The notes under the pieces are model-generated. The model ran no database searches. It had not been told where the DNA came from and saw nothing but the letters and a program-made list of their open reading frames with translations. Of a stretch of 64,000 nt of DNA, positions 19,392 through 20,584 are shown piece after piece. The stretch comes from an uncultured Alphaproteobacteria bacterium. GTDB lineage: Bacteria > Pseudomonadota > Alphaproteobacteria > RF32 > CAG-239. The DNA is taken from positions 131,239 to 195,238 of the forward strand of contig CALXWE010000001.1 in the NCBI GenBank assembly GCA_944392295.1, written 5' to 3'. Positions within the stretch are counted from its first letter, which is position 1, and each line of letters opens with the position of its first letter. Position numbers and translations under genes: made by a program.

Positions 19392-19419
19392 TCAAATAAC
19401 GCTTTAATGGAGTTTTATG

Positions 19420-19455
19420 ACCCCGGAAGGTTTTAACTTCCGGGGTTAATTTTAT
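19420..19455 (+). terminator. Terminator after the PH-domain gene
   Basis: A ten-base-pair perfect hairpin (ACCCCGGAAG / CTTCCGGGGT, loop GTTTTAA) is followed by TAATTTTA. The T tract is interrupted but the stem is very stable. Confidence 0.8.
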
Positions 19456-19522: not shown

Positions 19523-19571
19523 GTGTGGATTTAACCGAATTGTCCGGCACCATAAACGGACTAAAAAGGAG
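19523..19571 (+). promoter_or_regulatory. SAM-II riboswitch controlling metK
   Basis: The sequence closely follows the SAM-II consensus: GATTTAACCGnATTG, then ATAAA, then CTAAAAAGG. The fold can be traced. P1 is GTGT (19523-19526) with GCAC (19547-19550). The pseudoknot P2 is GTCCG (19542-19546), lying in the P1 loop, with CGGAC (19557-19561) downstream. The Shine-Dalgarno AAGGAG (19566-19571) directly continues the 3' arm, eight bases before the metK start. S-adenosylmethionine binding would therefore stabilise the pseudoknot and shut off translation of SAM synthetase, a simple product feedback. SAM-II is a known alphaproteobacterial class; the assignment here is from sequence and pairing, not from a model search. 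Confidence 0.9.
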
Positions 19572-19579
19572 ATTATAAA

Positions 19580-20584
19580 ATGTTAAAAACAGCAGAATTT
19601 GTGTCATTAGGTCATCCCGACAAAACAGCCGATTACATTACCAGCCATATTTTAGATAAAATGTTAGAGCAAGATAGCTCCGTGCGTTACGCTTTGGAAG
19701 TTATGGTAAAAGACAATACCGTAATTTTGGGCGGAGAAGTAGGCGGTAATGTAAGCTTAAAAGCAGTAGATGATTACGTCATTGAGGCTGTAAGCAACAT
19801 CGGCTATAATGCAAGATACACCAAAATCTGGCAGGATAACGCCATAGATATAAATAAGCTTAAAATTGTAAAGCTCGTAAGCAAGCAGTCAGACGATATT
19901 TATCAAGGCGTTAAAAACGGCGGCTGGGGAGACCAGGGCGTTTTTGTGGGCTATGCCTGTAAAGGTGAGGGCAATATGCCTCAGGAACTGTATTTGGCCA
20001 AAAAGTTAAACCGAGCAATTTATGAAAAAGCTTTATCGAGTGATAACTTGGGCTTGGATATTAAAACGCAGATTACTTTAGGTGAGGGCGGAAAGGTAAC
20101 AACGGCCATTGTTGCCGTACCAATGCTGAAACATGAAGATTTGCAAGACTTCGTAGCAGATGTTTTGCAGGCGGAGCCGGAAAAGTTAATAATTAACGGA
20201 ACCGGCGATTATGTAATGCACTCTTCTATTGCTGATTGCGGCATTACAGGGCGAAAACTGGCCTGTGATTTTTATTCAACGGCTTGTGCCGTAGGCGGTG
20301 GTTCGCCTTGGGGCAAAGATGCAGGTAAGGCTGATGTCAGCTTAAATATTTTAGCTCGGCTTATGGCAGTAGAAAACCTTGATGATAATGATGAAGTGTT
20401 TGTTTATTTATCATCTTGTATCGGTAAATCGGATTTACCAAGTGCCGTGGTAAAGAGCATAAAAGACGGTAAAGTAAGCACCCGTTGCTTGGAAGGTGAT
20501 TTTTCACCCCATACGGTCATTGAAAAATTGGGTTTAAATAAGCCTGTATTTGCCAAGCTTTGTAAGGAAGGTATAGTCCGTTAA
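19580..20584 (+). CDS. metK: S-adenosylmethionine synthetase, short divergent form
   Basis: The enzyme makes S-adenosylmethionine from methionine and ATP. The 334-residue protein keeps the active-site motifs in order: GHPDK (11-15), GGE near residue 51, GWGDQGVFVGYA (about 115-126), DCGITGRKLACD (about 214-225) and GGGSPWGKDAGKAD, the phosphate loop. It is about 50 residues shorter than the usual 380-400, mainly through shorter loops and a trimmed C-terminus, and many otherwise conserved positions differ (for example DFYSTAC where most have DTYGG). The upstream SAM-II riboswitch supports the assignment independently. A perfect 12-bp inverted repeat follows the stop. Confidence 0.92.
   Translation: MLKTAEFVSLGHPDKTADYITSHILDKMLEQDSSVRYALEVMVKDNTVILGGEVGGNVSLKAVDDYVIEAVSNIGYNARYTKIWQDNAIDINKLKIVKLVSKQSDDIYQGVKNGGWGDQGVFVGYACKGEGNMPQELYLAKKLNRAIYEKALSSDNLGLDIKTQITLGEGGKVTTAIVAVPMLKHEDLQDFVADVLQAEPEKLIINGTGDYVMHSSIADCGITGRKLACDFYSTACAVGGGSPWGKDAGKADVSLNILARLMAVENLDDNDEVFVYLSSCIGKSDLPSAVVKSIKDGKVSTRCLEGDFSPHTVIEKLGLNKPVFAKLCKEGIVR

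Follow-up and report, generated by a model that had tools for sequence, protein, structure and literature searches.

A probable SAM-sensing leader element of a SAM-II/SAM-V subclass preceding a phage-type metK gene in gut Alphaproteobacteria

The window, i.e., the whole 64 kb stretch of DNA that was analysed, contains a metK gene directly preceded on the plus strand by a 49-base H-type pseudoknot (19523–19571). Read from the sequence, the element consists of the segments GUGU-GGA-UUU-AA-CC-GAA-UU-GUCCG-GCAC-CAUAAA-CGGAC-U-AAAAA-GGAG. The features of the locus in window positions were as follows:

19418–19448 (+), terminator-like (intrinsic) hairpin of the preceding gene, 12 pairs with a U-rich tail
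19523–19526 (+), GUGU, 5' strand of P1, pairing with 19547–19550 in a pair series that covaries in relatives
19527 (+), extra G on the 5' side of P1 (GUGU-G-GA-UUU)
19530–19532 (+), UUU, third strand of the triplex (SAM-V U8–U10 in the numbering of PMC6061858), invariant in relatives
after 19532 and before 19535 (+), AA between UUU and CC
19535–19536 (+), CC, predicted 5' strand of P2a (anti-Shine-Dalgarno), pairing with the Shine-Dalgarno GG at 19568–19569
ending at 19539 (+), GAA between CC and UU, read from the sequence
19539–19541 (+), equivalents of ligand-pocket residues A18-U19-U20, with UU invariant and the first position A or C, as in SAM-II
19542–19546 (+), GUCCG, 5' strand of P2, complement of 19557–19561
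19547–19550 (+), GCAC, 3' strand of P1, pairing with 19523–19526
19551–19556 (+), CAUAAA, loop of 6 nt, its length differing among relatives
19557–19561 (+), CGGAC, 3' strand of P2, complement of 19542–19546
19562–19566 (+), UAAAA, equivalents of ligand contacts U47-A48-A49-A50 (mapped on PMC6061858)
19563–19567 (+), AAAAA run, read from the sequence
19567–19571 (+), Shine-Dalgarno AGGAG (GGAG at 19568–19571), its GG also being the predicted 3' strand of P2a
19580–20584 (+), metK, phage-type SAM synthetase of 334 aa, according to Pfam domains, TIGR01034 score and tree

The hairpin at 19418–19448 sets the metK leader apart from the upstream sequence, and a promoter scan of the plus strand revealed no convincing promoter. 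The core pattern occurred once in the 64 kb window, in none of 100 dinucleotide shuffles and only this one time in the whole genome; its uniqueness, together with the P1, P2 and P2a pairing, indicates that the element is real and correctly placed. MFE folding was uninformative (z of -0.62), as expected for a small pseudoknot, and the GUCCG/CGGAC helix did appear in it. An earlier note had traced a core and pseudoknot helices from 19523 onward, and these could indeed be read directly. The P1 that it described was recovered in the GUGU/GCAC pairs, but comprised here only 4 bp, one of them G-U, with the fifth position used in alternative ways. The ribosome-binding site, said to follow the 3' strand of the pseudoknot directly, does overlap the element and lies 8 nt from the metK ATG at 19580, but the GG of the Shine-Dalgarno is itself the predicted P2a strand (CC:GG).

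About 100 relatives have conserved the element ahead of metK. With the window MetK as the query, matches were obtained in 47 of 54 relative genomes, and among the fetched loci L001–L014 the motif was present on all 14 window-type metKs (at least 57% identity). It was found neither at the L015 metK (46% identity) nor at the inspected canonical metKs. A covariance model built from 13 sequences (R1) matched in 87 of 152 family genomes, often several times per genome, and in 6 of 289 class genomes, four of them in three other families; R1 had no match at C21, a second metK of the short type in G029. The G119 locus, situated near a contig end, was not re-readable as a clear element. The pattern scan of species genomes returned at least 105 stretches, and the matches listed came from Alphaproteobacteria or proteobacteria assemblies, with named sources mostly from gut and rumen. 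Two viral pattern matches (L243 and L246) were chance-like and were disregarded.

Among 118 distinct copies, P1 was in a fixed register and covaried strongly. Pair 4 was UA in 62, GC in 22 and AU in 21 copies and was paired in 90% of copies vs. 47% after shuffling (0 of 2000 shuffles as high), and pair 5 was likewise paired above every shuffle (0/2000), these figures not being strict probabilities because the copies are related. Pair 3 was always G-C, and pair 2 was U-G or U-A (C-G in three copies). If it is C or U, the base following GUCC pairs with the last G of the P1 5' strand; if it is G or A, its partner is the base preceding GGAC (22 of 28 copies vs. 1 of 90 for the rest), which makes it a swing position common to P1 and P2. 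P2 was near-invariant, with one double change from GUCC/GGAC to GUUC/GAAC (L110). The P2a CC:GG was present in 13 of 13 sequences and unvarying in alignment A3 of relatives, in which CUAAA was also invariant. The P2 core and P2a show so little variation that covariation provides hardly any test of them, and P2a is predicted from its conservation and from the precedent of SAM-V and metX.

At gathering thresholds, Rfam gave no match at the element, and the elements of 20 relatives were likewise missed. Relaxed thresholds applied to 281 bases resulted in SAM-V (RF01826) as the best match, with 22.0 bits and an E of 0.2 against a gathering cut-off of 41 bits. SAM-II (RF00521, cut-off of 36 bits) was absent from the relaxed-threshold list and from the source genome, the positive control of this search giving matches in 52 of 115 class genomes. 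RF01826 was matched in 0 of 128 family genomes, in a search with no matching positive control, and no covariance match of the SAM/SAH riboswitch (RF01727) was obtained up to E 10. The earlier note had named the element a SAM-II riboswitch and a covariance score below threshold as its refutation; the score was indeed below threshold, and membership of the Rfam SAM-II family has to be dropped, with a translational SAM-II-type element before metK retained. To take such a score as refuting the element altogether is too strict, because covariation and ligand contacts both stand up and it is the Rfam models that fail to cover the clade. Despite them, the comparative evidence establishes a real and widespread SAM-II/V-type element.

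In the crystal structure of SAM-V, SAM is held by U8–U10, A18, U19, U20, U47 and A48–A50, and a 2-bp P2a includes the Shine-Dalgarno (PMC6061858). Mapped base by base onto this numbering, the window agrees in letter with every one of these SAM-II/SAM-V ligand-contact residues. With SAM-V the element also shares the translational design, the ACUAAAAAGGAG 3' strand with the Shine-Dalgarno, and the 4-bp P2 and 2-bp P2a with the Shine-Dalgarno inside by which SAM-V is defined (PMC6061858). It differs in having neither the P3 helix nor the long internal loop, only a 6-nt loop being present, in its SAM-II-like GGA-UUU entry and AACC linker, in its other targets and in its gut and rumen alphaproteobacterial hosts, whereas SAM-V is known from marine bacteria (PMC6061858). 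SAM-II in its translational metX form (RF00521, 2QWY) is similarly an H-type pseudoknot with P1, P2 and a 2-bp P2a over the Shine-Dalgarno. The metX aptamer, UCGCGCUGAUUUAACCGUAUUGCAAGCGCGUGAUAAAUGUAGCUAAAAAGGG (PMC8494917), has GAUUUAACCG-AUUG and CUAAAAAGG in common with the element and shows the like core GAUUUAACC..AUUG...CUAAAAAGG. However, the P2 of the element has 4–5 Watson–Crick pairs (GUCC/GGAC) and reads UUGUCC...GGACUAAA, whereas the fetched canonical SAM-II copies have the short UUGC...GCUAAA (GATTTG...TTGC...GCTAAA as DNA); most SAM-II have UUUG in place of UUUA, and the P1 of 4–5 bp also differs. The SAM/SAH riboswitch is alike as a small pseudoknot 5' of metK in Alphaproteobacteria, but its core is different.

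The letter-by-letter comparison thus gave a SAM-II entry and linker combined with a SAM-V-like P2 and Shine-Dalgarno strand and no P3. R1 gave no match on canonical SAM-II copies, so that the subclass is separable. The element was filed as an undescribed SAM-II/SAM-V subclass with a SAM-II-like ligand core, a SAM-V-like P2 of 4–5 bp and a P1 of 4–5 bp; no earlier description of it was found in the open-licence literature. Feedback on metK by SAM/SAH riboswitches is already known (PMC2864571). The novelty lies in a subclass that Rfam lacks, that is joined to a phage-type metK and that has also spread to genes of islands, with this genetic context as the unexpected part.

The window MetK possesses three SAM-synthetase domains (PF00438, PF02772 and PF02773 in Pfam), and its TIGR01034 score of 168 bits did not reach the curated cut-off of 309. 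The phage-type character of this enzyme, as well as the presence of the element before other genes and on phages, goes beyond the earlier note. This short, phage-type protein was the only MetK found in the source genome (G000). A canonical metK was present in 46 of 128 family genomes, most others having the short type only. In four near-complete genomes of genus g14 (G015, G028, G260 and G265) no metK match was observed, possibly due to SAM auxotrophy or an assembly gap. Relatives of the window MetK were encoded by 63 viral contigs. The IQ-TREE analysis of 90 MetKs placed the window MetK among 70 rows forming one clade, 28 of them viral (support 100/100), and canonical MetKs from its own family and class fell apart from it (100/98); prophage and viral rows were scattered among chromosomal ones. 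A transfer of metK from phage to host would be the simpler reading of this unrooted tree.

The element together with metK was identified on three viral contigs (L242, L244 and L245). L242 encodes a GpA terminase, a lambda-type portal, a serine recombinase and a ParB-domain N6/N4 DNA methyltransferase, and a methyltransferase of the same kind is encoded by L245. The host loci L100–L102 have the metK–ParB order of the phage contigs. In the phage modules of L242, L244 and L245, the element, metK and the ParB-domain DNA methyltransferase lie close together. Many phage contigs (L284–L330) carry the short MetK type without the element, with metK sometimes directly after the apparent end of a methyltransferase gene. 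In sister genomes, a gene similar to MTA/SAH nucleosidase is oriented divergently to metK at L002–L005, L009 and L090 (NCBIfam-confirmed for L002 only); no match to it was found in the genome of the window.

Copies whose P1 has covaried (AAAGUG/CACUUU) stand before a 160-aa family, ankyrin-repeat proteins and a 207-aa family. In islands of a mobile or defence-like kind, the element was located ahead of the 160-aa family at L092, L097, L103, L108, L110, L114, L115, L122 and L136, of ankyrin proteins at L095, L109 and L112, and of the 207-aa family at L106 and L113. The 160-aa family gave no match in Pfam, PHROGs or PADLOC and has the invariant residues GSPL.G and LW....W. Type I restriction-modification genes, a DrmD-like helicase or genes resembling recombinases adjoin several such copies. 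On the viral contigs L270–L273, L278 and L279, a 60-aa ORF is preceded by GUGCGAUUUAACCUUACUUGCGGCACACAGCUAAAAAGGA, a SAM-II-like motif that is ultra-compact, with a loop of only about 3 nt.

The element is very probably a SAM-sensing translational OFF switch of a SAM-II/SAM-V subclass, inherited with the only metK found in the genome, the phage-type one. This reading draws on the observed anatomy, conservation, covariation, gene association and phage linkage; counting against it are the below-threshold Rfam scores and the copies located before genes with no known SAM link. SAM binding and the OFF direction would follow by analogy, the mechanism being modelled on SAM-V and metX. Without SAM, P2 would be a simple helix, leaving the Shine-Dalgarno free and metK translated. 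Once bound, SAM would fix the UUU strand in the major groove of P2 and thereby stabilise P1 and P2 together with the short P2a helix (CC:GG). This helix would capture the Shine-Dalgarno and stop metK translation as product feedback.

A P1, loops and P2 length unlike those of SAM-II and SAM-V, together with targets that in part are not methionine genes and the control of metK by a SAM/SAH riboswitch in Rhodobacterales (PMC2864571), could suggest that the same fold binds SAH, both SAM and SAH, or another metabolite of the SAM cycle. This seems unlikely, as the element keeps all of U9, U20 and A48, whose U:A.U triple recognises the sulfonium charge in SAM-V (PMC6061858). Leader regulators often look like a small element overlapping the Shine-Dalgarno, as would a protein-binding or autoregulatory translational operator, e.g., MetK acting on its own leader in place of a riboswitch. 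Such an operator is very improbable given that the ligand pocket of an established riboswitch recurs in the element, which also stands before unrelated proteins in genomes with a canonical-type metK. The high conservation of the sequence around the Shine-Dalgarno might finally reflect a promoter or ribosome-binding context with no regulatory RNA structure, which is hardly credible in view of the P1 covariation and the P1/P2 swapping; moreover, only 8 nt separate the end of the element from the ATG, a place where no promoter is expected.

For the proposed SAM-sensing translational switch, the arrangement of the relatives is informative as to the step controlled. The metK ATG was located 12–18 nt past the core in 70 relatives and 83–134 nt past it in 27, in which the Shine-Dalgarno of the element precedes a short ORF. 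This leader ORF is read in frames that differ between loci and in most cases passes through a hairpin CCTTTGGTT...AACCAAAGGAG over the metK Shine-Dalgarno; a strict pattern detected the hairpin at 25 of 27 leader-ORF loci but at none of the 70 loci with the direct arrangement. The loci include L141, L143, L148, L152, L166, L174 and about 20 more, with a conserved hairpin of 8–9 bp. A leader ORF with a hairpin over the Shine-Dalgarno is a translational-coupling layout, which implies translation as the controlled step. In these 27 relatives, translation of the leader ORF would open the hairpin over the metK Shine-Dalgarno, and the relay would be a two-step translational switch.

A further, tentative and rather doubtful possibility is a role of the element as a mobile SAM sensor. 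Phages would carry it along with a SAM synthetase of their own next to a DNA methyltransferase, this pair of element and metK would have displaced the host metK across much of a gut bacterial family, and the sensor would be shared by island genes (the 160-aa family and ankyrin proteins) near restriction systems. Such island genes would perhaps respond to a fall in SAM during infection or methylation demand. Because of the linkage to phages and islands, SAM sensing by mobile genes becomes directly testable. The gap between SAM-II and SAM-V would be filled by a common, overlooked subclass, and in a gut bacterial family with a phage-type metK the majority of genomes would carry a regulator missed by Rfam, a metabolite riboswitch tied to phage metK/methyltransferase modules and to the cargo of mobile islands.
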